Shown here: positions 38,801 through 60,406 of the stretch, one piece after another
Position numbering within the stretch: the stretch's first letter is position 1
How the letters are laid out: every line of letters starts with the position of its first letter
From: an uncultured Micrococcales bacterium
GTDB taxonomy: Bacteria > Actinomycetota > Actinomycetes > Actinomycetales > Microbacteriaceae
Length of the DNA stretch: 64,000 bases
Assembly (NCBI GenBank): GCA_903880095.1
Contig: CAIRNX010000040.1
Coordinates: 1 to 64,000 of the forward strand
Reading direction: 5' to 3'
Notes under the pieces: model-generated
Database searches by the model: none
The model's input: the letters and a program-made list of their open reading frames with translations, nothing else
What the model was told of the DNA's origin: nothing
Translations under genes and position numbers: made by a program

Positions 38801-39343
38801 GACCTCTACCTGCGAATGATTGGTGAGGCGGTTGCCGACTTCAAGGGTGAAAAACAGTCATCGCCTGCCGAACTCAAACTCGAGCTGCCCGTTGACGCCC
38901 ACATTCCTTCAACCTATGTCGACTCTGAGCGTCTTCGTCTCGAGGCATATCACAAGCTCTCGGCCGCCTCAAACGCGAGCAACACCCGCGCCGATCTCGA
39001 CGTGATTCTCGAAGAACTAGAAGACCGTTACGGGCTGGCGCCGCAGAGCGTGGTAAATCTGATCGATGTAACCGAGTTGCGTCAGCAGGCCAACCGCCTC
39101 GGGGTAAAAGACGCGATGATGCTCGGCACTCAAGCTCGAATATCACCGGTTGATCTTCTCGAAACCGAACAGGTCCGCCTAAGTCACCAATACCCGGGAC
39201 TCAAATACCTGCAAAGCGCGAGGCTGCTCACCGTGCCTCTGCCAAAGGATTCGGCGGGGGAGACCTTGCGCGATAAAGAGATGATTCAATGGGCGTGGGT
39301 TTTGCTCGCTCAAGTTTTCAGTAAGAAGGAACCAAATGACTAA
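35810..39343 (+). CDS. mfd: Transcription-repair coupling factor
   Basis: 1177 aa; LLAGDVGYGKTEVAVRAAFKA, DEEQRFGVEHKEKLK, GRVGRSRERAYAYFFY; GTG start. Confidence 0.97.
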   Translation: MDARANSKALSRLVALVADGYPVAALEAAIKKPRVDIVAPQGAHSTIVALLNHIRADKKLSRVQLVVAATGREAEDIAATLRGLDPEAEILEFPSWETLPHERLSPSPETVGRRVSVLQRLSELKTEHSDHSVYVLASVRAVLQPVIAGLANHPALALETGKSYFMPELTLKLVELAYERVDMVTKRGEFAARGGILDIFPTTASHAVRLEFFGDELEDIREFSVTDQRSLSLGEEHQPVKLVTLYPAREIVITPSVASRAREMMHEFPNLSTMLVKIAEGIPVEGMESLAPVLCDALVPLASYLPEDTAVTILSPEKSAARAQSLTETNEEFLHAAWDAAVEGATAPIDLSAGGFKSLEEFERDLGKRALYRVSTFDSPEEGVVNLGLLEIPNFTGLDMTVLQWIEDQTKHGQKVFLVAEGHGTAQRIEEQLVAKNLKAEVLQATLKKGFAAPASNLIVLTEADFYGKNSTYVSPTQRKLATKRGAAVDPLTLKPGDYVVHAVHGIGRFIELVRRRSGIGKQQHEREYLLIEYAPSKRGGSGDTLFVPTDHLDLLTRYVCGEAPVLSKMGGSDWARQKGNARKAVRKIAIDLVKLYSARMSAAGHAFGPDTPWQREMEEAFQFVETPDQLSTIEEVKRDMERAVPMDRLLAGDVGYGKTEVAVRAAFKAIQDGKQVAVLVPTTLLVRQHTDTFINRYSGFPVNVRSLSRFQSDKEVKETIKGLKDGTVDLVIGTHRLLMNNIEFKNLGLLVIDEEQRFGVEHKEKLKDFKMNVDVLSMSATPIPRTLELAVTGIREMSTLATPPEDRHPILTYVGGYSEKQVAAAIRRELIREGQVFFVHNRVESIDKVASEIRALVPEARVAVAHGQMSEGALEQVVVDFWERKFDVLVSTTIIETGIDIPNANTLIVDRAERFGLSQLHQIRGRVGRSRERAYAYFFYDLSKPLTDIAHDRLATIATNNELGSGMQVALKDLEIRGAGNLLGGEQSGHIAGVGFDLYLRMIGEAVADFKGEKQSSPAELKLELPVDAHIPSTYVDSERLRLEAYHKLSAASNASNTRADLDVILEELEDRYGLAPQSVVNLIDVTELRQQANRLGVKDAMMLGTQARISPVDLLETEQVRLSHQYPGLKYLQSARLLTVPLPKDSAGETLRDKEMIQWAWVLLAQVFSKKEPND

Positions 39344-40028
39344 CCTCGACAACCTCATCGCAACCGCTCACAAGCTACGCAGCCCAGGCGGTTGCCCTTG
39401 GGACGCCGAGCAGACTCACGAATCTCTCGTGCAGTACCTTCTTGAAGAAACTTATGAGCTGATAGATGCGATTGAAACCAAAGACGCAGCTGCAATTCGC
39501 GAAGAACTTGGCGACGTTTTATACCAGGTGGTCTTTCACAGCGACTTGGCCTCCTCGGGGTCGCTCGGCGACAAATTCGACATTCAAGATGTTGCCGCTC
39601 AGATGGAGGCGAAGATGATCTCGCGTCACCCGCACGTTTTTGGCGATGATGAGACCAAGGCGCAATTCAAGGCAGAAACCGGCGACGACGTAATGCTCAA
39701 CTGGGACGACCACAAGAAACGCGAGAAGCCTGAGCGCGAGTCTGTGCTCGACGGGATTCCAAAATCAATGCCGGCGCTTGCGCTAGCAAACAAGGTGCTC
39801 GGCAAAGCCGACAAAATGGGCTTGCTCGCCGAAGAAAACGGGCCATTGGTTATAGATTCCGAAGAGCAACTTGGCACACTTTTGCTGACCATAGCCACAA
39901 TTGCCAGGGCCGCCGGTTTCGACTCCGAGAGGGCTTTGAGAACCGCAGTTCGCGACCTCATGAGCGACATCAGAAAAATTGAGGTTTTAGAGGCTAGTGA
40001 CGCAGGCATTATCGCCCGCGAAGAGTAG
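39336..40028 (+). CDS. mazG: Nucleoside triphosphate pyrophosphohydrolase MazG
   Basis: LRSPGGCPWDAEQTHESLVQYLLEETYELIDAIE; EELGDVLYQVVFHSDLA. Confidence 0.95.
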   Translation: MTNLDNLIATAHKLRSPGGCPWDAEQTHESLVQYLLEETYELIDAIETKDAAAIREELGDVLYQVVFHSDLASSGSLGDKFDIQDVAAQMEAKMISRHPHVFGDDETKAQFKAETGDDVMLNWDDHKKREKPERESVLDGIPKSMPALALANKVLGKADKMGLLAEENGPLVIDSEEQLGTLLLTIATIARAAGFDSERALRTAVRDLMSDIRKIEVLEASDAGIIAREE

Positions 40029-40104: not shown

Positions 40105-40139
40105 GAACTGCATTGATGACTGAAGGCGGGTTTAGCCAC

Positions 40140-43100
40140 ATGCAATATATGAAGCGCATACTCGCTCTCGCAATTTGCGCAGCCGCCGCCATCACAGTCT
40201 CCTTGCTGTTAGGTTCGAGCAATACTGTTCACCAAATTGGCTCAGCCGCGAGCGTCAGAGCCTCCACTTTGACTTCGGGCGTTCGAGTTGAGGCAGAAAA
40301 AGCTTTAGTTGGCAACGTAGTTAGTGCGCCAAGAAGTGCCGTCAACCTTGGCTATGCAGAACCCACTTCTTACCGTTGGTTTGCTTGTGCAAAAGACGTT
40401 CCATTAGCAAGCAATGCTCAGCCAGCCGGTTGTTCGCCTATTTCTGGAGCCAACGCTGCAGACCTAACCTTGACCAATGCCGAGGTCGGCAAACACATCT
40501 TGTTCTCGATGTCAGTTGGCAACGGCCCAATCGCGTTCAGTGCAGCAACAGAATCTGCGGTTTCACCAGCGCCTACACTGGTTGCGGCTCCCGTCGGGCT
40601 AAATAAGTCGTTGAAGTTTGTTGCCGCTAGCTCTGCGCTTAACTCGAAAATCACCATTACAAGAGGTTTGTGGCCGGCAGCCGGAGCTGTAACTTCTGTG
40701 GCCTACCAGTGGCTTCGTTGCCCAGCGGCCGTTACTGCCGACCTGATCGCTCCCTCCAATTGTGTAGTGATTGACGGAGCCGTTGCTGCGAGCTATTCGG
40801 TAACCGTTAGAGATCTTGGTCAGCGAATCGTCGCACATCTAACTGCAGTTCAAGGTGGCGTTACAAGTGATGTTTGGACAAACTCGATCGGTCCTGTCTA
40901 TAAAGCGGTTAAGTACTACAAGGGTGCGACCGTTGCCGGTGGCGTTGGCGACTACCCGTACCTCGTCGACCAAGCTGTAACAGCAAACGAAGGTACCTGG
41001 GATGGACCACCGAACTTCACGTATCAGTGGTTCTCGTGCACGGCAAAGGTAGCTGCAGCTGCCACCCTCAACAAACTTTGCAAGGCAATCTCGGGTGCGA
41101 CGGCAGATTCATTTACCCCGGGTTTGGCGCAAAACGGCAAATTCTTAATGGTTCGCATCAGTGGCTCGACTCCTCTAGCTTCAACGGTGATAACCACGTA
41201 CAGCGCCTCATCAACCAAGGTGCTTGACGACCCGAGCAACACGGTTGTTGTCGCCTTGCCTAACGGCGCTCCGGTAGTCGGAATCTCTGTTTCGCTCATT
41301 CCAGGCACCTGGACAGGATCTCCGGCGCCGACAAAAACATATCAGTGGTACTCCTGCGACACTAACGAGACCGCCGCCGGCGCTGACAAGCCAGACGATT
41401 GCGATGTCATCACGGGTGCAACGGCAACCACGTTCACACCTACCCAAAATCTTTATGGGCGTTTCTTACTTGTCGAAGAAAAAGCGACGAGCATCGCCGG
41501 CACTGATTCGATTTTTAGTTCTACGCCTTTGTCTGTGGCCTCGCGCCCATTGTTCGAAAGCGACCCGCGAGTTAGCGGCGTAGCTGAAATCAATGAAGTC
41601 TTAGCCGCTTTCACCGGAACTGGTGCGAGTTCACTCGAAGACACCGCAAGTTACCAATGGCTTTCATGCTCAACGGCCTCACCAGCGACCTCGACGAAAC
41701 CCGTCAACTGTGCGCCGATTTTGGGTGCAACAGATTCGAGTTTCACCACGGACCGCAACGTCGAAGGTTCATTTATTGCAGTGTGGATAACACTAAGTAA
41801 CGAGGCGGGTAACACGACTCGAATGAGTGCAACTACCGATACCGTAATAAAGTCCGCGCCCTCTCTTGACTCAACCGACTTCACTCCTGCGACGTCGCCA
41901 ATAGTTGGCACAGCAGTAAGTGCACCTACGGGAACCTGGCGAGGGGCACCGGCGCCGTCATTCAGCTACCAGTGGTTGGTTTGCGACGCCGAAGGGGGCA
42001 AGGCGTTTGTTCAGCCTTCGGGTTGCTCAGAGATTGCTGGGGCCAACTTGGTCGCCTTCACCCCAACGCACGGTCAGGCAGCGAGTTTCTTGCGAGTTCG
42101 TGTTCGAGCAAATAACGAGCTAGGCACTTTTGAAGTTTGGTCTGCAACCACCTCAGCTGTTCGCGAAAAACCTGTCTTTTTAGGTGTTCCAGTAGTCACT
42201 GGGGGAGCTCTAACCGGCACGCCGATAACCGTAAGTCAGACTTCGGCGAATGGCGTTCCCGGGCCATCGACAGCAATTGCTTGGTATCAGTGCAAATCTC
42301 TTGTTACTGCGGCTATCGCCGCCGCCCCGGTAGCAACCAACTGCTCTCAAATTTCTGGCCAATCGGGTTTCTCGTACACGCCCACTAACGGAGACCTCGA
42401 TAAATTTATCGCCGCATACGTAACTAGCAGCAACGCTCTTGGCTCAGTCTCTTATTTCACGGCCTCGACCTCAAAGATTCAAGGGGCACCATCACTGCAA
42501 AACAACCCCGGAGCACCGGGGCAGGTTGGGGTAAGCCCGAAGGTTTTCTCAGCGGTTTTGGCGCCATCGGCAATCTGGGTTGGTTCACCGTCACCCACCC
42601 CAAACTTTCAGTGGTACAGCTGCGCTGACGAGGTTCTAACGCTCGTCACATCAATGCCCGACTATTGCTCAATCATCCAAGGTGCAACCGCAAGCAGTTT
42701 CACGCCAAGCGTCGACGAAGTCGATCGTTATCTTATGGTGCGGGTTGGCGCCAGTAACCTCTTGGGTTCAGCGACGCGATTTACCACTACCTCCTCCATA
42801 GTTCAGCAAATACCTATGTTCACTGTGGACCCAGCAATTTCTGCTGGCAAGTTCACCGGTGACGTTTTGACTTTTGATGACCTCTCTTATCTGGGCAGCC
42901 CTTCACCAACCGTCACGTATTCCTGGTACCGCTGCGACGCCGCTGTAACCGTCGTGCAGGCAACCAGCACTTGCCCCAAGATCCCCAATGCGATCGCGAA
43001 TTCCTATACTTTGGTGGCAGCCGACCTCGACAAGTACATCTCTGGTGCCGCAACTCTTACGTCATCGCTGGGCATCGTTACCAAAATATCTTTGAGCACG

Positions 43101-46100
43101 GTAAAGATTCAAGGTGCCCCAACTCTTCAAGGGACACTTGCGGCACCGACCGCGGGTGTGGTGAAGGTTGACACACCGATAACTATCCCGACCAGCATAT
43201 GGTTCGGCTCGCCGGTGGTTAGCAAAGTGTTCCAGTGGTACGCATGCACTAACTCCGTTTCGACACAACAGTCGACCATCGGACTTGACTGCTCACTTAT
43301 TCCAAACGCTGCCAACGTGACCTTCACCCCGACAATTGACCAAGTTGGCAAGTTCCTAGTGGTCAAGACAGCTGCGAGTAACATCATCGGCTCGGTAACT
43401 CTTTACTCGCCGAGTACTTCAGTGGTAAACGAGGCACCAAGTTTCCAAGGCGATACCTCGATCGACGATGTAAGTCTTGTCGGAAACAACGTCACGGTTT
43501 CATTGCCAACCACGCGCGGGTTTCCAAACCCTGCTCCTACCTACACCTGGTTCAGGTGCTCAGCAGCGGTGCCTTTCTCGGCGACGACGATTCCAGCAAC
43601 CTGCTCGCCAATCGCGAACTCCAATGCAGCACAATACATGCTCGATGTTTTAGATCTTGACAAGTTTGTTGCAGTTGGCGTCACACTCACAAACTCTTCA
43701 GGAACCGCAACTAAGTACAGCCCGTCCACTGTCTCGATTCAAGGTGTACCGAAAATTACCAACGCGCTTGGTATGCCAAGCTCGACGGTGGCTGCTGTTA
43801 CCGCTCCCCGCATTGGAACAGTCGAAAGTGCCCCTACCAATACTTGGGCGGGGTCGCCAAAGCCGAGCGTCAACTTGCAGTGGGTTCGCTGTCAAGACGA
43901 AGATCCGACGAGCAGTATTTTGCCTGTTCCGTGCGACGACATACCTGGCGCTTCGGGTAACACATACACACCGGTGATGGCCGATAAAGGCCTTACGCTG
44001 CGCGTTCGAATTACCGCGACAAACCTACTGGGAACCACAACCATCTGGTCAGGCTCAACAAGAAAGACACAACTATCTCCTAGCTTCGTTGCCCACCCGA
44101 CGCTCAACAGCTTCATCACGGTCGGCACGTTGGTGAGCGTAAACGCTGTGAATCAACTTGCCTCTCCAGGAGCTGCCGAGACCGAATCTTGGTACCGCTG
44201 CCCTGCCGTGGTGCCCAGCGCCTCAACAACTCCACCAGCAAACTGTGTTCAGATTCTCGGCGCCTCAGTAAATTCTTATACGATTCAGGCGCAGGACCTC
44301 GACAACTATTTGGTAGCGAAAGTTTCGCTGTCGAACGAAGCGGGCATTGCCACTGAATACACGGCCTCAACGGCCAAGATCATCTCGCTCCCCGTCTTCG
44401 ACCAGGAGCCAACGGTTGGCGGCCAAAGCTACGTAACCGGCAAGCTTGTGATTTTGCCGTTCAGTGTTTCGGCAAAGCCGGTAGCGACACTTAGCTACCA
44501 GTGGTACTACTGCGACACCAAAATATTAGTTAGTTTTGCTGATGTTCAGACCCCGAACTGCCACATCATTGCCGGGGCTACCAGCGACAGCTTCTTACCG
44601 ACCCAGGCAGAAGCGGGCTCCTACGTGAGTGTGCTCGTGACAGCAACAAACCTTGCCGGAACAACAACGTCATTCTCTAAGACGACCAGCGCAATTCTCA
44701 CCCCTCCTCGTAACGTCGTGCCGCAGGTTGTGACAGGCTCAACCACGGTTGGCGCCCAGCTTTCTACTGATACCGGAACTTGGAATCCGGCAACTAACGT
44801 CTCATTTGATTACAAGTGGTTTGCCTGCTCAAAGCAGACTGCAGCCTCAACGACAATCTCGACGACCGACTGCGCAGTAGTAGCCGGAGCAACAACGGCC
44901 CAGTTCAACTCCGGCGTTGCGCAAATTGGTAAATACATGGTCTCTGAAGTGACCGCCAAGAACTTCACCATAAACGTGCCCGAATATTCGGCTTCGACCG
45001 AAATCATTGCAAGTGTTCCCGTTTATACAACGGGAATGGGCGTCAACTTCTTGACCGGTCAAGCCTCGACCTCTGGAGCGCCACGTGTCGGTTACAGCAT
45101 TTCGGCAACAGATGGCGCTTGGTCGGGCACCCCTGCGCCTAGTTTTATGTACCAGTGGTTTGTTTGCAGTGTTCAAAAGACCGCCGCCGACAAGTCTCTG
45201 ACGCAAGACTGTCGTGAAATCAACGGCGCAACCACAAAAGACTTCTCGATCACACCTGCTATAGCTGACGACTACAACTTGGTCGGCAAATACCTGGGTG
45301 TGAAAATCATCGGCACCAATAAGGCGGGCTCGGACTTCGCCTACTCAGTGACCTCTGTCAAGACTGTTACTTTGCCACCACAGTTGGTAACGCCGCCTGA
45401 GATCTCGGGGTACAGGTACGTCGACGCGACACTGAGCGGCACTATTGGTGCATTCACCGGCATTCCAGACCCAAGCGAAACTCAGGCTTGGTGGCAGTGC
45501 GACTCAGCTATCCCAACGGCCGTGACTGCTCAGCCTGCCGGTTGCACAAAGCTGCTGCCGACCACACCGACAATCAAGCTGACGTTGGCGATGAAGGGCA
45601 AGTTCATTACCACTGCCACGATCTCGACCAACGATGCCGGAACCGTTACGGTTTGGGCTCCATCCACCATCGAGGTAACCACCGGCGCAATCAACACCGT
45701 GGCTCCAACCATTACGGCAAGCCCTAATGCGCTGCCAAAAGTTGGCGGAACCCTATCTGCCAACCACGGCGTTTGGTCTGGTGATCCTGCCCTAACCGAG
45801 GCTTCGTACACCTACCAGTGGTACAGCTGCGACGTCGAAATCAAGACCGCGAGTTTCACTCTCGACCCCAGCGCTGGCTGTCTACGTGTTGGCGATGCGG
45901 TAAACACCAACTATCAACCGGTTCGCGAAGACGCCGGCCGCTTCATTCTCGTCTCGGTCGCTGGAGCCAACTCAAACGGTGGTTCGAAGATCTTCAGCGC
46001 GTCAACCTCGAAGGTCAACCTTGAACCAGAACTTGTTATATCGCCGGTGCAGACGGGAAATGCGTTCGTAGGTAACCGGCAGAATGTATCAGATGGTACC

Positions 46101-49100
46101 TGGTTCGGTGTTCCAGACCCATCGTTCACCTATCAGTGGCTAATTTGCGACAGTGAACAGAGCGTTCCACCGAGCGCAAAACCGGCAGACTGCGCACTAG
46201 TTGTTGGTGCGACATCATCGGCTTACACGCCGCTTATTTCGCAAGTTGGACAGTACTTAATCGTTCAGGTGTCCGCTAATAACATTGCTGGTTCGACAGT
46301 CGCCTACTCGCTAACCTCTTCAGACATTAAGTCGGCTCCCGTCAACATCACTCCGCCAACCGTCACAATCGCCAACGGAACCAGTGGCTTACCGGTGGCA
46401 AACCAGTCGGTTGTCAGCACCACCGGAGGCAAGTGGCAGGGCCGCCCGACACCGACTTACCAGTACCAGTGGTTCAGCTGTGCGTTTGCCTTGGTTGCTT
46501 CGCCTGACGCACCAACTGCCGATAAGGATTGTCGCGCCGTTTCAGAAGTGACAGACACCGCCAGCTATAGCCCGGTTACCACCGACCGAGGTCGCTTTAT
46601 CGCGGTTGAGGTTTACGCAACGAACATTCATGCCACCGTTGCGCACTGGTCGGCCACTTCGGCCGTGGTTAACATGGCGCCAGTCGCCGATGTTATTCCG
46701 CAGGTTGCCGGGGTTGCCTTCGTTCAAGCCGTGGTTACGGCCAAGGCAGACACCTGGCTTGCCTACCCGGCGCCGACTCGCTCGTTCCAGTGGTTGTCTT
46801 GTGGAGAACTTGCGCTTCCGAGCGCGTGTTCGGTTATCTCAGGAGCTGCGGCAGCAACTTTCACGATTCCATCAAGCCTGAATGGCCGCTCGCTCATGGT
46901 TCGCGTAACCGCGACAAACCAGTTCGGCAACTCCAGCAGCTACTCGCTTGCAAGCGCAAATATCACCACAGGTCCGGTCAGCACAGTGCCGCAGGTAATC
47001 ACTGGCTCAGTTGCCTTTCCGCCAACTGCAGGAGCGCTACTTTCTACCGGCGATGGCAGCTGGGCCGGAGACCCGCGACCAACCTTGGCGTATCAGTGGT
47101 ACCGCTGCACGGCTCTGGTCTCAGCAAGCGCGTTTGAACTTGACCCGACCTGTTCGGCAATCACCGGTGCAACATCTAACACCTACGCCCTCACCGACAT
47201 AGACCCCGGAAATGCGCTTGTCGCAGGCATCACCGGCAGCAACTCTTTCGGAACCTCGACTCGTTTCTCGGCATCGACACCAATTGTCACCGAGAAAGTT
47301 CGCCTGATAACGCCTCCAACTCTCACCGCCTCTGCCAAAATCGGCCAAGACATCACCGCAGACGAGGGTGTGTGGCGAGGATTCCCCAGACCCGATACCA
47401 GTTACTCGTGGTACAGCTGCACCGTTGCCAACCCAGCTGCTCCTGTTCAAGTTGCGGCGGCAACCGGCGTCGGCGTTGTGCCACCTACGACTTGTACCAA
47501 GATTCAGGGAGCAATTCGTTCTTCGCTTGCAATTTCTGACTCACAGGTCGGCAAGATGCTGATCTTCATGGTTACCAAATCGAACACTGTGGATGGCGTT
47601 CTCAGTACTGTGAACGCATACACCCAGTCGAGCTTGCCAGCCGCTCAGCCGCCGGTTTCGCTTGCCAAACCAGTGATCTCATCGCCTGGCATGATTGTTG
47701 GTGCTAACCCAAAGGTGGGCAGCGTTTGGTCTGTTAGTACCGGGCTTTGGGTGGACCCGCAGCCAATCAAGACCTACCAGTGGTACCGCTGTGACTCGCA
47801 GGTCGCCACCGGGCCAACTCACATCACTTCGGTACCCGTCGCGTCTGGTTGTGTTGCCATCTCGGGTGCCACGAATACGTCTTACACGATCATGGCCGAA
47901 GACTCGGGCAAGTTTGTTGCCGTCGAAGCCATCGCTTCAAACGCGGCAGATACGCTTCACGAGTGGTCGAACTCGACGCTCGCCGTTCTTCAGGTGCCCA
48001 TCGCGATCATTCCGCCGACCATCAGCGGTGACCGCCAGCGCAACAAGGTGCTGACCATTAATCAGGGAACCTGGACGGGCAGCCCTACTCCCGTAATCAA
48101 CTTCCAGTGGTACTCGTGCAAGACTGCTGTTCCCGCAACCTCAACTACGCCTCAGCCAGCAACGAACTGCTCTCAGATCAGTGGTGAAACGTCGGCTACT
48201 TATACACAGTCGCCCGCCGGTAGCGATGACGGAAAGTTCATCACGGCTACCGTTAGCGGAACCTCAGGTAACTCTGACCCAACCGTTTACTGGGTAACTG
48301 TTGCCTCGGGCGATGCCACCGCACAGGCCCCTACTGTTTCTGTTTTGCCAACTTTGACATCACTTTCAAACGTTGTGCCAACGGTTGGCGTCACTTACAG
48401 CATTGGTGACGACCGCTGGATTGGTGCGCCAACACCGGTTGTCACTTACAAGTGGTACGCCTGCGACGCAGTTGTTGCCGCCGCCGGTTCAGCCATACCT
48501 GGAGGTTGCGCGGTCATTGATGGTCAGACTTCCCAGACTTACACGGCGACCATCGCGCTCGCGGATTCACGCAAATACCTACTAGGTTCGGTGACAGCCA
48601 CCAATCTAGCCGGCACGGCCACCACGTACACAAAGTCGCTGACCTCGATCATCGACAAGGGTCTTCTTAACACCACGCCGGCCTCGGTTGCGGCACCGTC
48701 GCTGCTGGTGCCGACCCCAGACGCTTCACCAATCACCGGAACCACGGGTGTCTGGTCAAGCAACAACACTCTTCAGATCACGCACCAATGGTTTGTTTGC
48801 CCGTACGCGTTAACAGTTTCAAACAGTTACATTCCTATCGACTGCTTCAGCATTCGAAGTCAAGAGGTGGGCGGTCAGGTTACGCCGCTGAAAATCACAC
48901 CACTCGACGAAGTCTCTGGCATGTATGTTGCGCTGTACGAAAAAGTCGAGCAAAAAATTGACGCAACCAACTGGCGCAAGGTTCGCGAACGTCTCACCCC
49001 CACGACTGGGCAATTGCTCGAAGCTCCTTCATTGCGAATTCGAGATGCTGGTTTCGTGGCGCCATCTGTGGGTCAAGACATGGTCGTCGGGTATAGCTCG

Positions 49101-52100
49101 ACAGTTACTGCGGGGGCATGGGTTGCGGCCCTAAATGCAGAGACCTCTTTCACCTGGCGTGGTTCTGAGGTTGGCACGTTCAGCTACCAGTGGTTTAGTT
49201 GCATCTCATACCAAGCCAACTACACGACTTTGGGGCTTCCGGCGGGCTGTAGCTACATCACCACAAGCGTTAGTAGACCGTCAGTCAACTCTTCGATCGT
49301 GCCAATCGAATCTGAGATCAGTTCGTTCCTCGGAGTTCGAATCACGGCAACAAATGCGACTGGTTCAGCTGTCGCTTGGACCAACACCTCGAGAGCAGTA
49401 ACTCAAGAAGTGGCCAACATAAATCCTGTCTCCCTCGGTTCTGCCTTCGTTGTTGGTGACCGCTTGACACTAAGCGGTGGCACGCAGACCGACTGGAAGG
49501 GCTCGCCAGCCCCTGCGATTACCGTCGATTGGTACTCTTGCACCGCACAGCACCCAACCGCACCGTCAGCAGTTCCGGCAGACTGCACGTTGTTCGTAAA
49601 CGGCACGCAAAACCCAAGTACAGGGCTCACGATTCCTCTCGAGAGGTCAACCGGCACTCAATACCTGATCGCACGAGTTACTGGTGTGAATACCCCGTGG
49701 AACGCGCCGACAAGAAGTAGCACAGTTGCGATTTACACACCAACTACACACAGAATTCTTTCGCGTCCTTACATCAACACCGCCTTAGCCAACCCATACC
49801 CTTCGCAAACCGGAGTTGCCGATGCAACTGGCAGCCTAAACCTCACGCAGGGAAACTGGGCTGGCTCTGCGCCGATTACGCTAAGTGGCCGCTGGTTTGC
49901 CTGCGATAGCCCGGTTGCTGCATCAAGTTTGGCTACGCCAGCAGAAGGCTGCACAATCTTCAAGACGGCGACTCAGGCTGTCCTGCTAACACACAGCCAG
50001 GTTGGCAAATACATCGTTGGTCAGATTGTTGCCACTAACGAGGCTGGAACCACCTATCAGTCGGCCGCCTCGAGTGCAAGGGTCCTTGAACCTCCAACAA
50101 TCGTCTCGCCGCCTGAAGTAACTCTGGTTGACCCACCGTTGGCATCCGGTAAGAACGAGGTTGGCCAAAAGCTCACCTACACTTCGGCTGCTTGGGATGG
50201 CTCACCAACCCCTACGGCTTCGGCACGGTTCTACGCCTGCGATGCGCCAATCGCATCATCTGTTGCGTCCATTCCAGCTAACTGTGCTGTTGTTGCTGGA
50301 GTTGCCGGTTCGGTACTCACCCTCGGCGACACCGAAGCCGGCAAGTACATTGCAGTTGTTAGCACGGCAACCAACACCACAAACGGTGGTCTCAAGACAA
50401 CTCTTAGCGTCTCGGCAACTATGGGCCCGGTCTACCGCTCGCCATACTTTGACACCGCAATCGCGCCAACTATTAGCGGTCAGGCTCATGTTGGCTCGAG
50501 CCTTTCGTTTACCAAGACCACCATTAAGGGGTTTGAGACTCCTACCAGCATTCACGCTTGGTACATTTGCGATTCTCCGGTACTCGCCGCGGTGAACGAT
50601 GCCGTGCCTTCGGGTTGCTCGCCGATCGCAGACAATCCAAACGCTAGCCTCACCGTTCCCGCTTCAGCTGCGGGCAAGTACGTCCTCGGTATTCAGTCGG
50701 CATTTGCGTCTTGGACGCCTGTCAGAGTCACTCGTTCTTCGGTAACAAGTGCGCAGATCACCGCTTCGCCTGCTGTTCAAAGCGCACCAACTGTGGCCGG
50801 GGACGACTACGTAGGTGGTTCGGTAAAGGTTTCGGTAAACCAAGGAGTCTGGTCGAGTTTCCCGGCAATTACAGACAACGCCCGTTACTCAATTAGCTTG
50901 TTTGCCTGCACAGCGACCAGCGTTGCGCAGGCAACGACCAAGCCGGCAACTTGTGGAGCGACCGCTTTAGCCGTTTATACCGCGGCTGCACCAACACCGT
51001 TCACGCTGACTTCGGACCTTGACGGAAAATTTATTGTCGCCAAGGTAACTGCAACCGTGCCAACCAACAAGAGCCAGACCGACTCTCTCGACTCTTACAG
51101 TGCTTCATTCGGCCCGGTACGTGAGGTCGCGTCGCTACCGACACAGCCTGTAATTACTGGTGCAGGCGCACCAGATGTTGGCCTAAGCCTTTCACTGCAG
51201 CCGATCACAGCTGGCGGGTTCCCAAAGAATAGCCCGACCTATAACTGGTACGTGTGCCCAACGGGTGGCGCTTCGGCACCAACATCAATACCCGCCGGTT
51301 GCGACCTGCAGGCTAACGTCAGCTCGAAGGCGTTCCCGATTCCTCCAAGCGCTGCCGGCAAGTATGTATTTGCATGGGTCACGGCCAGCAACGAACTAGG
51401 CTCGGCTTCGCGCGCAACTGCTTACAGCCAGATGGTCAAGATGGCCGCCGTGAACACAGCGCCACCAAGCTTGAGCGGTGGCGATGAGGTAGGCAGCCCG
51501 ATAAACGCAAACCTTGGAGCCTGGACGAGCACTCCGGCGCCAACATTTACCTACATGTGGTACTCCTGCGACAGCTCGAACTCGACCATTTCTAACGGCT
51601 GCACACCGGTCACAGGCAGCACCGCAACTGCAAGCCTCACTCCTGTTGAGGCGCAAGCAGGCAGGTACATCATCGCCAATGTGACTGCGACCACAGCTGT
51701 TTGGTCTTCAAACGTTCAAACTGTCAAGGCCACGGCAACGTTTGGCCCGATCCGCCAACCAGCAAACCTCAAGCTGGCACCTTCAATTGGAGGTACCGCA
51801 CACGTTGGCGAACAGCTGACGGTTTCGCTTGGTAATGGAAGCCTAGTTGGCTTCCCTTCGGCCACATTCAGTTACGACTGGTATGCCTGTGACACAGCCG
51901 TGCAAGATTCTGCCACCGTGATTCCTGCCAACTGCTCACAAATCTCGAACTCTCCAAAGACTCCACTCACAATCGATTCGAGTGCAGCGGGCAAGTTCAT
52001 CATCGCCGCAGTTACCGCGAGCAACTACTCGCAATTCATGCGCACTACGACTTCTACGCCTGCCGTAACTTCGAGCCTTTCGAACCTAACCGCACCTACA

Positions 52101-54041
52101 CTCTCGGGCGATAACTTTGTTGGTGGCACTGCCATAAACGCCAGCGCGGGCACTTGGTCAAGTTTCCCTGTGGTGAACCCAGCCAGCGACCTCACTTACA
52201 GCTACTTCACATGCCCAACCTCAACCTGGGTTTCAAGCTGCTCAGTTCTAGCAACTGCTGGCACAAAAGTGACATCGATCACACTGACCTCGGCGATGCA
52301 GGGAAGGTACCTATTCGCCCGTGTGACCGCTTCGGTGCAGGTCAACAAGCCAAATACTGGCTCTACAACGGTCACCACCAACGGCATCGGTCCAATACTT
52401 GCGGCACCAAGTTTCTCAACTACTCCTTCGATCGGAGGTGTTTCACACGTCGGTAGCATAATCACCGCAACTAGTACCGGCGAACTAGGTGTGCCTGCGC
52501 CTACTAAGACCTACTCTTGGTTCTTCTGCAACGCTGCTGTAACCGTGAGTTCCGCAACCATGCCTGCCGGTTGTGCGGCGGTAGACCCCGCCATCGACGG
52601 TCAGCCGACGATCACTCTGCCAGCAGCCGCAGGTGGCAAATTTGTGTCGGTTTTGGTCACGCTTGCAAACCAGCCTGGACCTTCGGTTGCGACCGTTTCG
52701 GCTTCGTCACTTTCAGGGCTTCTTGTGACCGCCACTCCGGCTAGTACGTTGGCGCCCGTTCTATCCGGAAGCGACATCTTTGCCACTGGCAAAACGATTT
52801 CGGTCACCGCGGGAACCTGGGCTACAGCGCCTACAAATGCCGTTCAGACCTACAGCTTCTCTTGGTATGCCTGCCCAACGGCTACTAGTGCGATTGCAAA
52901 CTGTGCTTATCTAAAAGACACCAACACCGGATCAATCGACACAACCGACGCGATGGTCGACAAGTTCGTCATTGCCAAGGTCACCGTTTCGGTAGCGGTC
53001 AATAAGTCTGGCGCGGGCACGGCATTCGCCTACAGCAACTACTCCGGCCGAATTCGCAAATCTGCTGTATTCAGCGAATCCCCGAATGTCACCGGATACA
53101 TGAACATCGGCGAGACCGTCAGCGTGACTGATGGCAAACCCGTCGGTGTTCCTGCACCAACCGTTTCATACAACTGGTACGTATGCGCCTCTTCTGTGCC
53201 GGCAACGGTGAATGCACCACCAACCGGATGCGTGCTCGATAATTCTTCAACCGGTAACACCTTCGTGATACCAAACACTGCTGGCGGCTCATACGTGATA
53301 GCAATTGCAAAGGCAACAAGCGACCCAGACCTAGCAACCGTCTATCGCTCAAGCGTTTCAATCGTTCCAGTTTCGGCTGGAGCAGTGCTGGGCACCACGG
53401 CGCCAGCAATTACTGGCACGGCTGTCTTAGGCTCACCTGCTCTTGCTGTGAGCAACGGAACTTGGACCTGGAAGCCAAGCACTTTGGTTGGCGCTTACAG
53501 TTACCGTTGGTTCGCCTGCTCAAGCACAACAACTTTCAACGGCGGCGCAACTCGGCCAGACACTGGTTGCACGTTGATCGCTAACCAGACGGCAAGCACA
53601 TTGACTCTCACTAACAGCGAGTTGGGCTACAAAATCCTTGCCGAGGTTAGTGTCACGGTTGCCACGAACACGGCGATTCCTACTAAGTCCAGTTACAACA
53701 CAGCACTTTCGGGCTTGGTCATGTCGAAACCGGTTGCCGGCTCAACCCCTCCATCAATTTTCTACAGTTCACTTGCTGCGGGTTCGCTTGTGCAGGCGCG
53801 CCTTGGCAGCTGGAGCGGGTCGCCAGCGCCGGTATTGAGTTACAAGTGGTTCACCTGCCCCGCTGCCACTGCTCAACCAACCAGCAAACTCGCTCCAGCT
53901 ACTTGCACCCTGCGGGGCTCCAACGCAGACCTCACCATTTTGAGTGCCTTCAAGGGCCTGAAGTTGCTCCTCGAGGTGACGGCGGCGACCGATGGTGCCG
54001 GCACAGCTACCAACATCTCTGCACTGGTGGGGATTCCATAA
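40140..54041 (+). CDS. Giant (~4.6k aa) exported protein of Cys-paired Ig-like repeats
   Basis: One uninterrupted ORF; start MQYMKRILALAICAAAAITVSLLLG (signal/TM; SD-like gaaggcgg); recurring G(T/A)WxGxPxPxxxYQWYxC...xCxxIxGAT...T. Confidence 0.9.
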   Translation: MQYMKRILALAICAAAAITVSLLLGSSNTVHQIGSAASVRASTLTSGVRVEAEKALVGNVVSAPRSAVNLGYAEPTSYRWFACAKDVPLASNAQPAGCSPISGANAADLTLTNAEVGKHILFSMSVGNGPIAFSAATESAVSPAPTLVAAPVGLNKSLKFVAASSALNSKITITRGLWPAAGAVTSVAYQWLRCPAAVTADLIAPSNCVVIDGAVAASYSVTVRDLGQRIVAHLTAVQGGVTSDVWTNSIGPVYKAVKYYKGATVAGGVGDYPYLVDQAVTANEGTWDGPPNFTYQWFSCTAKVAAAATLNKLCKAISGATADSFTPGLAQNGKFLMVRISGSTPLASTVITTYSASSTKVLDDPSNTVVVALPNGAPVVGISVSLIPGTWTGSPAPTKTYQWYSCDTNETAAGADKPDDCDVITGATATTFTPTQNLYGRFLLVEEKATSIAGTDSIFSSTPLSVASRPLFESDPRVSGVAEINEVLAAFTGTGASSLEDTASYQWLSCSTASPATSTKPVNCAPILGATDSSFTTDRNVEGSFIAVWITLSNEAGNTTRMSATTDTVIKSAPSLDSTDFTPATSPIVGTAVSAPTGTWRGAPAPSFSYQWLVCDAEGGKAFVQPSGCSEIAGANLVAFTPTHGQAASFLRVRVRANNELGTFEVWSATTSAVREKPVFLGVPVVTGGALTGTPITVSQTSANGVPGPSTAIAWYQCKSLVTAAIAAAPVATNCSQISGQSGFSYTPTNGDLDKFIAAYVTSSNALGSVSYFTASTSKIQGAPSLQNNPGAPGQVGVSPKVFSAVLAPSAIWVGSPSPTPNFQWYSCADEVLTLVTSMPDYCSIIQGATASSFTPSVDEVDRYLMVRVGASNLLGSATRFTTTSSIVQQIPMFTVDPAISAGKFTGDVLTFDDLSYLGSPSPTVTYSWYRCDAAVTVVQATSTCPKIPNAIANSYTLVAADLDKYISGAATLTSSLGIVTKISLSTVKIQGAPTLQGTLAAPTAGVVKVDTPITIPTSIWFGSPVVSKVFQWYACTNSVSTQQSTIGLDCSLIPNAANVTFTPTIDQVGKFLVVKTAASNIIGSVTLYSPSTSVVNEAPSFQGDTSIDDVSLVGNNVTVSLPTTRGFPNPAPTYTWFRCSAAVPFSATTIPATCSPIANSNAAQYMLDVLDLDKFVAVGVTLTNSSGTATKYSPSTVSIQGVPKITNALGMPSSTVAAVTAPRIGTVESAPTNTWAGSPKPSVNLQWVRCQDEDPTSSILPVPCDDIPGASGNTYTPVMADKGLTLRVRITATNLLGTTTIWSGSTRKTQLSPSFVAHPTLNSFITVGTLVSVNAVNQLASPGAAETESWYRCPAVVPSASTTPPANCVQILGASVNSYTIQAQDLDNYLVAKVSLSNEAGIATEYTASTAKIISLPVFDQEPTVGGQSYVTGKLVILPFSVSAKPVATLSYQWYYCDTKILVSFADVQTPNCHIIAGATSDSFLPTQAEAGSYVSVLVTATNLAGTTTSFSKTTSAILTPPRNVVPQVVTGSTTVGAQLSTDTGTWNPATNVSFDYKWFACSKQTAASTTISTTDCAVVAGATTAQFNSGVAQIGKYMVSEVTAKNFTINVPEYSASTEIIASVPVYTTGMGVNFLTGQASTSGAPRVGYSISATDGAWSGTPAPSFMYQWFVCSVQKTAADKSLTQDCREINGATTKDFSITPAIADDYNLVGKYLGVKIIGTNKAGSDFAYSVTSVKTVTLPPQLVTPPEISGYRYVDATLSGTIGAFTGIPDPSETQAWWQCDSAIPTAVTAQPAGCTKLLPTTPTIKLTLAMKGKFITTATISTNDAGTVTVWAPSTIEVTTGAINTVAPTITASPNALPKVGGTLSANHGVWSGDPALTEASYTYQWYSCDVEIKTASFTLDPSAGCLRVGDAVNTNYQPVREDAGRFILVSVAGANSNGGSKIFSASTSKVNLEPELVISPVQTGNAFVGNRQNVSDGTWFGVPDPSFTYQWLICDSEQSVPPSAKPADCALVVGATSSAYTPLISQVGQYLIVQVSANNIAGSTVAYSLTSSDIKSAPVNITPPTVTIANGTSGLPVANQSVVSTTGGKWQGRPTPTYQYQWFSCAFALVASPDAPTADKDCRAVSEVTDTASYSPVTTDRGRFIAVEVYATNIHATVAHWSATSAVVNMAPVADVIPQVAGVAFVQAVVTAKADTWLAYPAPTRSFQWLSCGELALPSACSVISGAAAATFTIPSSLNGRSLMVRVTATNQFGNSSSYSLASANITTGPVSTVPQVITGSVAFPPTAGALLSTGDGSWAGDPRPTLAYQWYRCTALVSASAFELDPTCSAITGATSNTYALTDIDPGNALVAGITGSNSFGTSTRFSASTPIVTEKVRLITPPTLTASAKIGQDITADEGVWRGFPRPDTSYSWYSCTVANPAAPVQVAAATGVGVVPPTTCTKIQGAIRSSLAISDSQVGKMLIFMVTKSNTVDGVLSTVNAYTQSSLPAAQPPVSLAKPVISSPGMIVGANPKVGSVWSVSTGLWVDPQPIKTYQWYRCDSQVATGPTHITSVPVASGCVAISGATNTSYTIMAEDSGKFVAVEAIASNAADTLHEWSNSTLAVLQVPIAIIPPTISGDRQRNKVLTINQGTWTGSPTPVINFQWYSCKTAVPATSTTPQPATNCSQISGETSATYTQSPAGSDDGKFITATVSGTSGNSDPTVYWVTVASGDATAQAPTVSVLPTLTSLSNVVPTVGVTYSIGDDRWIGAPTPVVTYKWYACDAVVAAAGSAIPGGCAVIDGQTSQTYTATIALADSRKYLLGSVTATNLAGTATTYTKSLTSIIDKGLLNTTPASVAAPSLLVPTPDASPITGTTGVWSSNNTLQITHQWFVCPYALTVSNSYIPIDCFSIRSQEVGGQVTPLKITPLDEVSGMYVALYEKVEQKIDATNWRKVRERLTPTTGQLLEAPSLRIRDAGFVAPSVGQDMVVGYSSTVTAGAWVAALNAETSFTWRGSEVGTFSYQWFSCISYQANYTTLGLPAGCSYITTSVSRPSVNSSIVPIESEISSFLGVRITATNATGSAVAWTNTSRAVTQEVANINPVSLGSAFVVGDRLTLSGGTQTDWKGSPAPAITVDWYSCTAQHPTAPSAVPADCTLFVNGTQNPSTGLTIPLERSTGTQYLIARVTGVNTPWNAPTRSSTVAIYTPTTHRILSRPYINTALANPYPSQTGVADATGSLNLTQGNWAGSAPITLSGRWFACDSPVAASSLATPAEGCTIFKTATQAVLLTHSQVGKYIVGQIVATNEAGTTYQSAASSARVLEPPTIVSPPEVTLVDPPLASGKNEVGQKLTYTSAAWDGSPTPTASARFYACDAPIASSVASIPANCAVVAGVAGSVLTLGDTEAGKYIAVVSTATNTTNGGLKTTLSVSATMGPVYRSPYFDTAIAPTISGQAHVGSSLSFTKTTIKGFETPTSIHAWYICDSPVLAAVNDAVPSGCSPIADNPNASLTVPASAAGKYVLGIQSAFASWTPVRVTRSSVTSAQITASPAVQSAPTVAGDDYVGGSVKVSVNQGVWSSFPAITDNARYSISLFACTATSVAQATTKPATCGATALAVYTAAAPTPFTLTSDLDGKFIVAKVTATVPTNKSQTDSLDSYSASFGPVREVASLPTQPVITGAGAPDVGLSLSLQPITAGGFPKNSPTYNWYVCPTGGASAPTSIPAGCDLQANVSSKAFPIPPSAAGKYVFAWVTASNELGSASRATAYSQMVKMAAVNTAPPSLSGGDEVGSPINANLGAWTSTPAPTFTYMWYSCDSSNSTISNGCTPVTGSTATASLTPVEAQAGRYIIANVTATTAVWSSNVQTVKATATFGPIRQPANLKLAPSIGGTAHVGEQLTVSLGNGSLVGFPSATFSYDWYACDTAVQDSATVIPANCSQISNSPKTPLTIDSSAAGKFIIAAVTASNYSQFMRTTTSTPAVTSSLSNLTAPTLSGDNFVGGTAINASAGTWSSFPVVNPASDLTYSYFTCPTSTWVSSCSVLATAGTKVTSITLTSAMQGRYLFARVTASVQVNKPNTGSTTVTTNGIGPILAAPSFSTTPSIGGVSHVGSIITATSTGELGVPAPTKTYSWFFCNAAVTVSSATMPAGCAAVDPAIDGQPTITLPAAAGGKFVSVLVTLANQPGPSVATVSASSLSGLLVTATPASTLAPVLSGSDIFATGKTISVTAGTWATAPTNAVQTYSFSWYACPTATSAIANCAYLKDTNTGSIDTTDAMVDKFVIAKVTVSVAVNKSGAGTAFAYSNYSGRIRKSAVFSESPNVTGYMNIGETVSVTDGKPVGVPAPTVSYNWYVCASSVPATVNAPPTGCVLDNSSTGNTFVIPNTAGGSYVIAIAKATSDPDLATVYRSSVSIVPVSAGAVLGTTAPAITGTAVLGSPALAVSNGTWTWKPSTLVGAYSYRWFACSSTTTFNGGATRPDTGCTLIANQTASTLTLTNSELGYKILAEVSVTVATNTAIPTKSSYNTALSGLVMSKPVAGSTPPSIFYSSLAAGSLVQARLGSWSGSPAPVLSYKWFTCPAATAQPTSKLAPATCTLRGSNADLTILSAFKGLKLLLEVTAATDGAGTATNISALVGIP
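40360..54020 (+). repeat. About 42 degenerate ~110-aa Ig-like repeats within the giant CDS
   Basis: Counted by eye from W[YFLVW]xC...C motif pairs in the translated protein; DNA identity between copies is low. Confidence 0.85.
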
Positions 54042-54166: not shown

Positions 54167-57100
54167 TTGGCCGAAGCGAGAGGCCGCCTCGGCGGTCGCA
54201 CACTCAAATTTTTTGCGATTCTCGCAATTCTAGGCTTGGTCGTTGCCGCAGTAATCGTCAAAGGTTTTGAGCATGGTGACATCAAGGTCAACACGCAAAA
54301 CCTCTGGATTTTGCACAAGTCGGTTATTACCACTGGCGCCGGCTCTAAGGGCTCTTATTATGGGCAGGTAAACCCAGGTCTTGGCGAACTAACCTCGGTC
54401 AACTCGGTTGCCAAAGAGCCTGGCGCCATTCTCGAGAGTGCATATGGTGCCGAACTTTTTGGCACCGACATGACGATGGCAGATGTAAACCTTTCAGCTC
54501 CTGCTGACTTCGCCAAAGAGTCCAAGTCATTCAAAACCCCGCTTGATTCGACCTCGGTTTCGTTGGTCGAAAAAGTTATTGCGTTCTACGGCGAAGCAAA
54601 CGGTTCAGTTAGTTATTCGACCATAAATCAGGGGGTTGCGACCGCGCCACAAGCGATTGGCCGGCCTGCTGCCCTGACTTTTGAAAAATTTTCTGCCGCA
54701 GGCGTTTCAAGCGCAGGCGTCATTTATGCTTTCTCGGCAACAGCGAATAAGGTCTTCGGCTACGACACCCAAACTGCGCAGTGGCTTTCCACTTCTGATG
54801 AAGTTTCTGGCGCTTCGGGCGGATCGTTTCAGCTTGCAAGCGTGGGTGATAAATGGATATTGCTCGACTCAAAAAACGGACGCGTCTGGGTCAAAGGAGT
54901 TGCCGGCAGCAAGTCCTTCACGCCAGATGATTCGGCAAAATTACAAGAGACGAGCTCATCTAACTCTTCTTTGGGCTATTTTTCGACCAACTCGGGGCTC
55001 TTTTCGGTCAGCCTTTCCGCTGGCGACATCAAACAGGTTTCGGCCGCCACAGGCGCTAACAGTCGCCCCGTAGTTTTCGAAGGCAACATCTATTCCAGTT
55101 GGATTAACTCAACTGATGGGCAACTTTTCAACGGTTCGACAAACCGACTCGTGCCCCTTGGTGGCTTTGATGCAGGCAAGTCGCTAACCGAAACACCTGA
55201 TCCTGTAATTCAGACCAATAGTTACGCGGCAGTGCTTAACGACGCCCAATCTGGTTGGGCCTGGAACATCTCAGACGGTAGCGTGATTCCTAGCAGCCAA
55301 GACTGGAAGAGCAAGATTGTTCCACCACCGCCAGTAATCACGGGCGGCGAAGAAGCCAAGAAGCAAGAACCACCAACTGCAAACGACGACTCTTTTGGTG
55401 CGCGTCCAGACGTGCTAACCACGCTTCCTGTACTACTCAACGACACCGACCCAAACCCCGAGGATGTTCTAACAATCGACCCGGCATCGGTTTCGGGTTG
55501 GGACCCAAACAAGGGAACCCTACGAATCTCAGCAGACGGCCAGTCTTTCTCGCTTTTACCAACCAAGACAGTCAAGGGTTCGGCTAGCTTCAATTATCGC
55601 GTTAGCGATGGAAGTCAGGCTCACGGAGCACTTTCAAAGGTTGCCGCGACCGTCACTATTACTTTCTTTGCGGGTGCTAAAAACTCGGCACCCGTGTGGT
55701 GCTCAGACGCGCCGACGCCCTGCACCGAGCGTCCGGCTCCAAGCGCCAACGTTTTACCAGGTCAATCGGTTGCGGTGAGTATCGTCGACGGTTTTGTAGA
55801 CCCTGAGGGTGACAAGGTATTTATCAGCGCAGCCGATGTGACATCAGGCACCGGCACAGTTGGGTTTGACTCCAAAGGTGAGGTGGTCTTTAGGAGCAAC
55901 CTGAGCAAGGGTGCCAGCGAATCCGCAAAAGTCAACGTGACCGTGAGCGATTCGCTAGGTGCCACGGCAACCAAGAGCCTCGCCATAAAGGTCGCGCCGA
56001 ACGTCGAACTGGGCTTTGAGCCATTTGTGGTGACCACGGTTGTTGGTCAAACCAAGGTTGTCGACATCGCTCGAGGTGTCAGAGGCGCGTATGGAGCAAT
56101 CAACCTCGTCGAGGTGAAGGCGCCGCCAACCGCTCAGGGAGCTCAAGTCCCGATTGTAAGTTCGACCGCATTTTCAGTAACAAGTTCGGTAGCCGAGCAA
56201 CTTCAAATAGCAATCAAATTCAACGATGACAACGGCGTGCCAAAGAGTTCTTACGTTCAGGTCAATGTGATCGAAGACAATGTCGCAAAGATTGCCGTTA
56301 GCCCGGTGACCGTGTTGGTGCGCCCTGGTCTCGATTCAACTGTCGATCTGTATGGCGCTATTTCTAACCCATCCGAGCGCTCACTTATTATTAGCGACCT
56401 GGAAGTCACGCCCGTTCCAGGTTCAACGCTAAGCGCTGGCAAGGTGAAGGGCGGAAACATGCGCCTTCGCGGTTCAACCGAAGATCAATCTGCCGGGCGC
56501 ATCGGTACCGTCACCTACAAGGTGAGCGATGGTTCATCTGACTCAAACTACTCAGCGGTTGGTCAGATATTCGTCTATCAGGTGACCAATGCGTCGTCGG
56601 CGCCAATTGGTGTTGACGACTCAATCACCCTTCGCGCCGAATCCACCGGCGACATCGATGCGCTGGCAAACGACGTTGGCACTCCAGGTATTTCGCTTGC
56701 ACTAGATGCCCAAAACGTTACGTGCAAAGGAACCGGTTTCGATGAAAAGCAGGGAATTGCTTTTGCCGCCCATGGAGTCCTTCGCGTAGTTGCGCCGACT
56801 CAGCCGGGTGCATACCACTGCAACTACACGCTCTACGCCTCTGATGCCCCAAGTCTCAAGACCAGCGCTGGTTTCACGGTAAATGTCACATCAAAGAGCA
56901 GCAACAAGGCACCCATCGCGCCAACCCTTAAAGCGCGCGTCACTTCATACGCGACAGTTGAGGTTCCGATACCGCTGAACGGTATCGACCCTGACGGAGA
57001 CACAGTCGCAATTACCGGTGTCGGGCTGAGCACCGCAGGCAAGGGTTTTGCAACCGTGAGCGCGAAGGGAAACTCGGTTTTCTACACCGTAATCCCTGGT

Positions 57101-60100: not shown

Positions 60101-60406
60101 TCTGGCGTTGAACTGCCCAACCAAACTTGCACCCCTGCCTTGCGGCAATATGTCAAATTTGGCGCTGAAGGTGACGGCATAGATGGTTGGCTTGGTGCTA
60201 CACCAGACGAAATCGTCAGCGGGCAGTTTGGTGCTGATTACCAGCTCGAAGGCTCCAACACTTGGAGCCCACTGGATTCTGGGTCGTATTTCACGGTCAG
60301 AAAGAAGTCCCAAGTCATCAAGAAGATGCGCTTCTGGTTGCAGCCAAACGGCGCATCGACCAGCGGTCTCGACAAGGTTCAAGTGACACTAGATGTCACT
60401 TGTTAG
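54167..60406 (+). CDS. Membrane-anchored Ig-like/cadherin-like/Fn3 multidomain protein
   Basis: 2079 aa; TTG start with SD aaggtga; N-terminal TM (TLKFFAILAILGLVVAAVIV); DPDGDTVAITGVG...DSFSYTVSDGQGG repeats. Confidence 0.85.
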   Translation: MAEARGRLGGRTLKFFAILAILGLVVAAVIVKGFEHGDIKVNTQNLWILHKSVITTGAGSKGSYYGQVNPGLGELTSVNSVAKEPGAILESAYGAELFGTDMTMADVNLSAPADFAKESKSFKTPLDSTSVSLVEKVIAFYGEANGSVSYSTINQGVATAPQAIGRPAALTFEKFSAAGVSSAGVIYAFSATANKVFGYDTQTAQWLSTSDEVSGASGGSFQLASVGDKWILLDSKNGRVWVKGVAGSKSFTPDDSAKLQETSSSNSSLGYFSTNSGLFSVSLSAGDIKQVSAATGANSRPVVFEGNIYSSWINSTDGQLFNGSTNRLVPLGGFDAGKSLTETPDPVIQTNSYAAVLNDAQSGWAWNISDGSVIPSSQDWKSKIVPPPPVITGGEEAKKQEPPTANDDSFGARPDVLTTLPVLLNDTDPNPEDVLTIDPASVSGWDPNKGTLRISADGQSFSLLPTKTVKGSASFNYRVSDGSQAHGALSKVAATVTITFFAGAKNSAPVWCSDAPTPCTERPAPSANVLPGQSVAVSIVDGFVDPEGDKVFISAADVTSGTGTVGFDSKGEVVFRSNLSKGASESAKVNVTVSDSLGATATKSLAIKVAPNVELGFEPFVVTTVVGQTKVVDIARGVRGAYGAINLVEVKAPPTAQGAQVPIVSSTAFSVTSSVAEQLQIAIKFNDDNGVPKSSYVQVNVIEDNVAKIAVSPVTVLVRPGLDSTVDLYGAISNPSERSLIISDLEVTPVPGSTLSAGKVKGGNMRLRGSTEDQSAGRIGTVTYKVSDGSSDSNYSAVGQIFVYQVTNASSAPIGVDDSITLRAESTGDIDALANDVGTPGISLALDAQNVTCKGTGFDEKQGIAFAAHGVLRVVAPTQPGAYHCNYTLYASDAPSLKTSAGFTVNVTSKSSNKAPIAPTLKARVTSYATVEVPIPLNGIDPDGDTVAITGVGLSTAGKGFATVSAKGNSVFYTVIPGQEGQDSFSYTVSDGQGGKSIGWVKVGIFGKYQTGGPVTVVDVVDLVAGTKGKAVFDPTANDFDPNGKGLQLVIGSVKPNLKEGTDAYRTSASLIADQPTTNKTRSVTITAAAQVSELEYVYSVKDAFGNVSLGSILVRVTKSVVPDNPEVQDTFVDAKQRASLGTVGVDVLTNKVTWLTGDPSRLTLTLVGNTHGFRVSGNKAIIGEAPAAATFVVFKLSGQNYALQDISTYGILHIPAESRIINLRDVNQVWEVDEGATADQNVLDWVAIPPGASVEVDGNRVTNSDNGRPEGRCSFKGGTTVTYSAGTGGTKFNDVCIVPIRYAGEKDYSLVPLRIHVKAKNPEPLFNNVTIEVMPGSTATVDLKSMVSWDQANAAFGWKVTHASGSSIDANGPDADVMTFTVVPGSDAREEDQFRVQVGSFQNFGVITVIVGESPNARPSATLTFDNKACNVKSGVCALHVGDLTGVVNAFPEPLKLMPFGFNKGTANYKNGETLTCIGVKIKVTDVTTVTATWDVKKGAPTTQTCPMLTGAGALLDTEGKKGALKISVDLQGVPLAPLRVEQVGFNRTTVTIRIKAGDFIVGDNAVTEYVVREGARVIANCMRQGDETVTTCPKIEDLRPFHGTDKENLHSFSVTAKNAVGESSSCVGAGIYAYEKLRQITPDVIDARTVLGRETATDMGVLAITLTPQVDPLAAKYVISGDGGTAARTEVIAGDYKVRNFQISAKPGAATTVTVRAEGAVPAPVQGSIDNSTTTINVRVSGAPEVGTTAAAIIGDNSPYFGKITLHNANRKYSVRTAKVAYVFWSGDRTPACLFDEPTNALTVEQQAGSIVRFAEDKAFNDQVTDLVSPDVSGLQQNVTYHAKACYSNGFKVSESIASNTLSTIQDPNDGDFEYKVELASSTQSTGNYLYSWVVKLAKQQSPAAGMKVQFSSNPANANDWRDTFYSEYWGAKPVIKVRYCNTAATICSSGQALVKAQDDTKSWQIRVKRAFIGDQSGVELPNQTCTPALRQYVKFGAEGDGIDGWLGATPDEIVSGQFGADYQLEGSNTWSPLDSGSYFTVRKKSQVIKKMRFWLQPNGASTSGLDKVQVTLDVTC

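Follow-up and report, generated by a model that had tools for sequence, protein, structure and literature searches.

A giant gene for 42 cysteine-paired Ig-like domains is linked to a PFNA-type gene cluster in small-genome Microbacteriaceae

The stretch of an uncultured Micrococcales genome analysed here (64,000 nucleotides, referred to as the window) contains an intact giant gene that encodes 42 tandem Ig-like domains, each with a pair of cysteines, and stands at the head of a gene cluster resembling the PFNA operon of bifidobacteria. This linked cluster, which was absent from the original prediction made for the same DNA, is the strongest functional clue available. The explanation to which we give slightly better than even chances is that the product would be a Sec-exported, disulfide-stapled fibre, made or displayed with the help of the PFNA-type surface module, for which we infer a function in adhesion or aggregation.

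The giant gene and its repeats

The reading frame is uninterrupted from a TTG at position 40113 to position 54041 of the + strand, so that the early description of an ORF intact over its full length was correct. The likely start is the ATG at 40140, and the gene (40140–54041, +) then encodes 4,633 amino acids with a computed mass of ~476 kDa and a pI of ~5.7. By inspection and hydropathy, the product begins with a Sec-type signal peptide region (40140–40260, +; MQYMKRILALAICAAAAITVSLLLG...) that comprises a charged n-region and a hydrophobic stretch (residues 4–30). The tandem Ig-like domains follow at 40251–54038 (+) without any other domain: the protein contains no cytoplasmic domain and, apart from the repeats, nothing that would be a binding domain, and neither an LPXTG motif nor a C-terminal transmembrane segment was found in it by sequence inspection and hydropathy. 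Sortases are encoded elsewhere in the genome, but sortase anchoring of the giant protein was rejected for want of an LPXTG motif.

The estimate of about 42 repeats, nearly all of them with a cysteine pair and with some 84 cysteines in total, proved to be cautious rather than excessive. There are exactly 42 domains of ~106 amino acids, and each of them (42/42) has exactly two cysteines. Of the 85 cysteines of the protein, one belongs to the signal peptide, and the remaining 84 form 42 strictly alternating pairs with zero exceptions, the second member of a pair lying 9–25 positions after the first and the next pair following 89–119 positions further. In the 42-row domain alignment these two cysteines are the sole invariant positions, and the tryptophan located three residues before the first of them is conserved in more than 90% of the rows.

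The repeats are old and diverged. Their pairwise identity is 25% on average and 40% at most, and tandem repeats at the DNA level were not detected in the gene by TRF; recent tandem duplication was rejected on these grounds, and the lack of DNA-level repeats also makes collapse or expansion of the array during assembly unlikely. The mean local score between domains reaches 120 at offset 2 and 116 at offset 4, as compared to 98 at offset 1 and 92 at offset 3, and this even–odd difference exceeds that in all 5,000 shuffles of the domain order. The array is thus a two-domain super-repeat that grew, at least partly, by the copying of two-domain units.

The nearest relative that we found, the MAG Jr-7aug17-225 (Microbacteriaceae), carries on its contig CANGNZ010000018.1 an intact ortholog of 4,650 amino acids that is 77% identical to the giant protein. 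All 42 domains (42/42) are collinear reciprocal best hits between the two proteins; 84/84 domain cysteines are kept, the signal-peptide cysteine alone being lost, and so are 86/87 tryptophans. The stretch between the paired cysteines is 68% conserved compared to 78% for the remainder, as expected for an exposed loop. The dN value is 0.16 and dS is 1.3–1.8, giving a dN/dS of ~0.1 that stays low in every 500-codon bin, and by this measure the gene is under purifying selection. The window comes from an assembly of 42 contigs that is 92% complete, which could raise the suspicion of an ORF produced by faulty assembly or of a gene in decay. We give this explanation practically no weight, and misassembly and pseudogene status were both rejected: the sister MAG is independent and its ortholog is intact and collinear, dN/dS is low (~0.1), and the repeats are just 25% identical to each other.

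The Ig-like fold and the cysteine pairs

Domains 6–8 (41847–42797, +) were modelled by AlphaFold2 with 20 aligned triplets in the input. The model is a chain of β-sandwich (Ig-like) domains with a mean pLDDT of 89.5, and both cysteines of each domain are placed at the ends of facing, successive strands of a single hairpin. The strand pairs in question are 38–46/60–62, 141–149/166–168 and 251–259/274–276 in the three domains; the first cysteine ends one strand (residues 46, 149 and 259) and the second begins the next (60, 166 and 274), so each pair would, according to the model, close one β-hairpin. Canonical Ig disulfides connect the two sheets, and the predicted arrangement differs from them in this respect. 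The best Foldseek matches in the PDB are likewise extended tandem Ig chains (Robo1, axonin-1 and titin I67–I69, E down to 2.6e-7), and the model and these matches together identify the protein as a tandem of Ig-like β-sandwiches belonging to the same fold family as the titin, Robo and contactin chains, although the identity to the latter is just 10–17%. The TM-scores over the full triplet are just ~0.2–0.45, probably because the inter-domain angles differ. A sequence search of the PDB with the 42-repeat profile returned chance matches only.

One disulfide per domain is most likely, because the protein has a signal peptide, its 84 domain cysteines are all kept in the sister ortholog, the pairs are complete, the hairpin topology is suitable and VKOR, an enzyme that generates disulfides, is encoded in the genome. 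(VKOR is also present in most of the congeners tested, irrespective of the presence of the giant.) The cysteines might instead be ligands of metal or haem, or remain in the reduced state, but we consider this very improbable: there are only two of them per domain, located at the base of one hairpin, they are accompanied by no invariant His, Asp or third Cys, and both the export signal and VKOR point the other way. The initial picture of a disulfide-stiffened extracellular fibre or adhesin can therefore be retained in part. The signal peptide, the cysteine conservation and the AlphaFold2 model speak for a long extracellular Ig chain, most likely with one disulfide per domain, while its action as an adhesin is a further step that we infer. 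An Ig domain is ~4 nm long, from which the whole chain could reach ~150–180 nm.

The cysteine pair as such is not a peculiarity of this protein. When the 42-repeat profile was run against 199 genomes of the phylum, 19 of them gave matches, across many families. Most of the matches carry two cysteines (for example, FEWLRCNSEGASCSTISGASG in genome G234) and a minority is cysteine-less with a shortened loop; in a larger set of domains spanning both positions, both cysteines are found in 331 and a single one in 1 (331/332 complete). Small proteins with a single domain of this type also occur in the genome from which the window comes, among them two on contig C17 (ORFs of 533 and 535 amino acids) and a pentapeptide-repeat protein on contig C11. 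Two loci of this genome (L140:5856–7481 and L141:8216–11221) encode pentapeptide-repeat proteins ending in Ig-like domains, which are cysteine-paired in one protein and largely cysteine-less in the other. The idea that the cysteine loop is special to the giant had to be abandoned, since the domain with the W-x-x-C...C-x-x-I-x-G-A-T core and the same two cysteines occurs across Actinomycetota.

The nearest Pfam model is IG_AIR9 (PF23197), and the match is barely above the threshold: the whole giant protein scores 29.4 bits against a gathering cut-off of 27.5, no single stretch of it is significant alone, and a protein of a congener with 4 repeats scores 40.2. The giant differs from other actinobacterial proteins with this domain in that 42 copies make up its whole mature chain, and its inter-cysteine loop is mostly 13–17 residues long compared to 4–9 in many distant homologs.

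The gene cluster and its relation to the PFNA operon

Downstream of the giant gene and in the same direction lie the genes of a 2,079-aa Big_9/cadherin-like protein with an N-terminal membrane anchor, the putative counterpart of the PFNA FN3 protein (54167–60406, +), of a MoxR-type AAA+ ATPase (AAA_3; 60429–61394, +), of a DUF58 protein (61394–62755, +) and of a polytopic transglutaminase-like protein of 904 amino acids (62752–64000, +, running past the window to C40:65466 on the contig), and then hisS and eno. The upstream border of this inserted cassette is mazG (39336–40028, +). The mazG–hisS interval (from window position 40028 to C40:65724) is a variable insertion site in Rhodoluna-like genomes: mazG adjoins hisS directly in L021 and L022 (an empty site), L027–L029 contain inserts with methyltransferase-like or other likely defence genes, as judged by sequence inspection, and the insert in L024 is an FN3 surface protein. 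Since this gap is empty or otherwise filled in the relatives, the whole giant cassette sits in a variable site. Elsewhere in the window, an ORF of 173 amino acids (18632–19153) has an Ala/Lys/Pro-rich tandem-repeat tail (18764–19135) and a histone-H1-like composition with no Pfam match, and a 1,187-aa protein (13006–16569), which matches the AAA_11 helicase model just weakly, is possibly a divergent helicase-like protein.

In bifidobacteria the PFNA operon consists of pkb2, fn3, aaa-atp/MoxR, duf58 and tgm, with the kinase gene first (PMC8430577, PMC6803598). The order fn3-type, MoxR, DUF58, transglutaminase-like is common to both systems, and judging by gene content the cluster of the window is the core of the PFNA operon minus the kinase, with the giant gene added at its head. 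The fn3 counterpart shows a further difference: Pfam assigns Big_9 and cadherin-like domains to it and its fn3 model gives no match, whereas the second PFNA product has FN3 domains. The kinase is missing from the cluster in this genome and in the sister, and elsewhere in G000 and G286 only paralogs of ~28–34% identity were found. The full kinase-bearing set occurs in relatives, the kinase being present in the cluster of G012, G017, G259, G505 and G550.

The clusters of these relatives also exceed the bifidobacterial operon by the genes of an FHA-ABC transporter and an LRV protein, which are missing from the cluster in G000 and G286. In G505 and G550, representing two further genera of the family, the order is giant, FHA-ABC transporter, LRV protein, kinase, fn3-type, MoxR, DUF58 and transglutaminase-like protein, the giant being 4,347 amino acids long in G505 and 2,972 up to the contig end in G550. 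In G012 a single contig shows this extended order up to DUF58, and the extended synteny in G012, G017 and G259 is partly pieced together across contigs. A double-FHA ABC-2 transporter gene directly follows the giant in G012, G017, G505 and G550 (L100/L101, L102, L241/L242/L249 and L243/L244); the other three copies are 55–72% identical to that of G017, a degree of conservation above that of most genes in the cluster.

Of 67 genomes of the genus, five encode the fn3-type protein and the same five the transglutaminase-like protein; at least 20 hits of the cysteine-paired domain again occur only in these five, the next highest number being 11. The giant is lacking in the single-contig genomes among the congeners searched; Rhodoluna lacicola is open to natural transformation with gene replacement (PMC11577799). 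Such an agreement would have a chance of ~1e-7 if the five were drawn independently, but this independence does not hold. Two gene arrangements account for all five, after mazG in G000 and G286 and between LysE-type and MalY-type genes in G012, G259 and probably G017, so the fair count of independent co-occurrences is small. Elsewhere in the order, nine PFNA-core clusters were examined, and none of them is accompanied by a giant or by syntenic FHA-ABC or LRV genes. The module thus does not need the giant, since most of the clusters examined lack it, and it appears that the giant needs or accompanies the PFNA-type module and not the reverse. This linkage is a hint at a joint action of the fibre with the cluster.

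The transglutaminase-like protein (L138:2753–5467) reads GDDEQFA, with an Asp where the catalytic Cys is expected, the position being judged by eye. The same motif is present in G388, G044, G288, G550 and G286, whether or not the genome has the giant, and on this evidence the protein is a conserved pseudo-transglutaminase; it gave no match in the PDB. The conserved loss of the catalytic cysteine argues against the cross-linking role implied by the name, and enzymatic, covalent cross-linking of the fibre by this protein, which we also considered, is for this reason doubtful.

Possible functions and significance

According to the explanation that we prefer, the giant protein would be exported via Sec and form a rope-like fibre, either on the surface or released, in which a disulfide across one β-hairpin would staple each domain, and such a chain should resist unfolding and proteolysis. 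The membrane-anchored Big_9/FN3-type protein, the MoxR ATPase, the DUF58 protein and the polytopic transglutaminase-like protein, joined in relatives by a Ser/Thr kinase, the LRV protein and the FHA-ABC transporter, would most likely mature, display or regulate the fibre or help it to fold. The anchored fn3-type protein is a candidate holder of the fibre at the cell, and the fibre would probably serve to attach the cell to particles or to other cells or to aggregate it with them. For the FN3 protein of the bifidobacterial cluster, a role in the adhesion to epithelial cells has been reported (PMC6803598). The adhesion-fibre reading is opposed by the missing anchor motifs and separate binding domain, by the many PFNA-core clusters that do without a giant, and also by the gaps in the cluster of the window and of the sister MAG, from which the kinase, FHA-ABC and LRV genes are missing.

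The fibre could alternatively be a passive shield: a long coat, either released from the cell or bound to it just loosely, that would hinder protist grazing, phage adsorption or protease attack. The small genome is of the plankton type, the giant has no anchor motif and its distribution in the genus is patchy, as would be anticipated under selection for variety by predators or phages; in addition, SwmB of Synechococcus WH8102 (10,791 aa), likewise a giant exported protein of a planktonic bacterium and likened to ours by description, has been described as serving in swimming and grazing defence (PMC4949707). A passive coat, however, has no need of a linked cluster of the sensing and adhesion type, and we regard the shield as rather unlikely. 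Less probable still is an antenna, ligand-binding or tension-sensing, that feeds the PFNA kinase, the cluster being then a signalling and not an assembly system. The double-FHA ABC transporter and the kinase do lie between the giant and the fn3-type gene in relatives, the bifidobacterial kinase Pkb2 reportedly has the MoxR protein of its own operon as a substrate (PMC8430577), and the FHA-ABC transporter Rv1747 shares an operon with the kinase gene pknF (PMC3908365); nevertheless, the giant is strongly constrained in this genome and its sister although their cluster kinase is gone.

The adhesion-fibre explanation can be extended, more tentatively, to a dedicated fibre system of small-genome planktonic Microbacteriaceae, in which the extended PFNA operon would produce, display and phospho-regulate the cysteine-stapled Ig rope, with an FHA-ABC exporter, a MoxR/DUF58 chaperone pair and the pseudo-transglutaminase as its parts. 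We see this as a possibility worth stating, with the chances somewhat against it.

A protein of this size is not without parallel in a small genome, contrary to what was originally supposed. Giant genes fill 6% of the 1.5-Mb genome of Apilactobacillus kunkeei, and its Giant1–5 (3,000–8,000 aa) are also very large Sec-exported repeat proteins; they have C-terminal DUF5776 domains, not seen in our giant, and the paper describing them makes no mention of cysteine, disulfide or Ig-like domains (PMC12863079). Giant repeat proteins, Ig-like arrays, the cysteine-paired domain and the PFNA module are each already known. For their combination in several genera of small-genome Microbacteriaceae, in the form of a giant cysteine-stapled Ig gene tied to an extended PFNA cluster, we found no report among the open-access papers searched.

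Clusters of MoxR, DUF58 and transglutaminase-like genes are widespread in bacteria, and to our knowledge their client and their job are unclear. The tie of such a cluster to one giant secreted protein in three genera offers a concrete client for testing, and if the fibre-system interpretation is true, the widespread PFNA or MoxR–DUF58–TGase module would gain a physical client. The giant gene also indicates that streamlined freshwater plankton can devote ~1% of the genome to a single structural surface protein.
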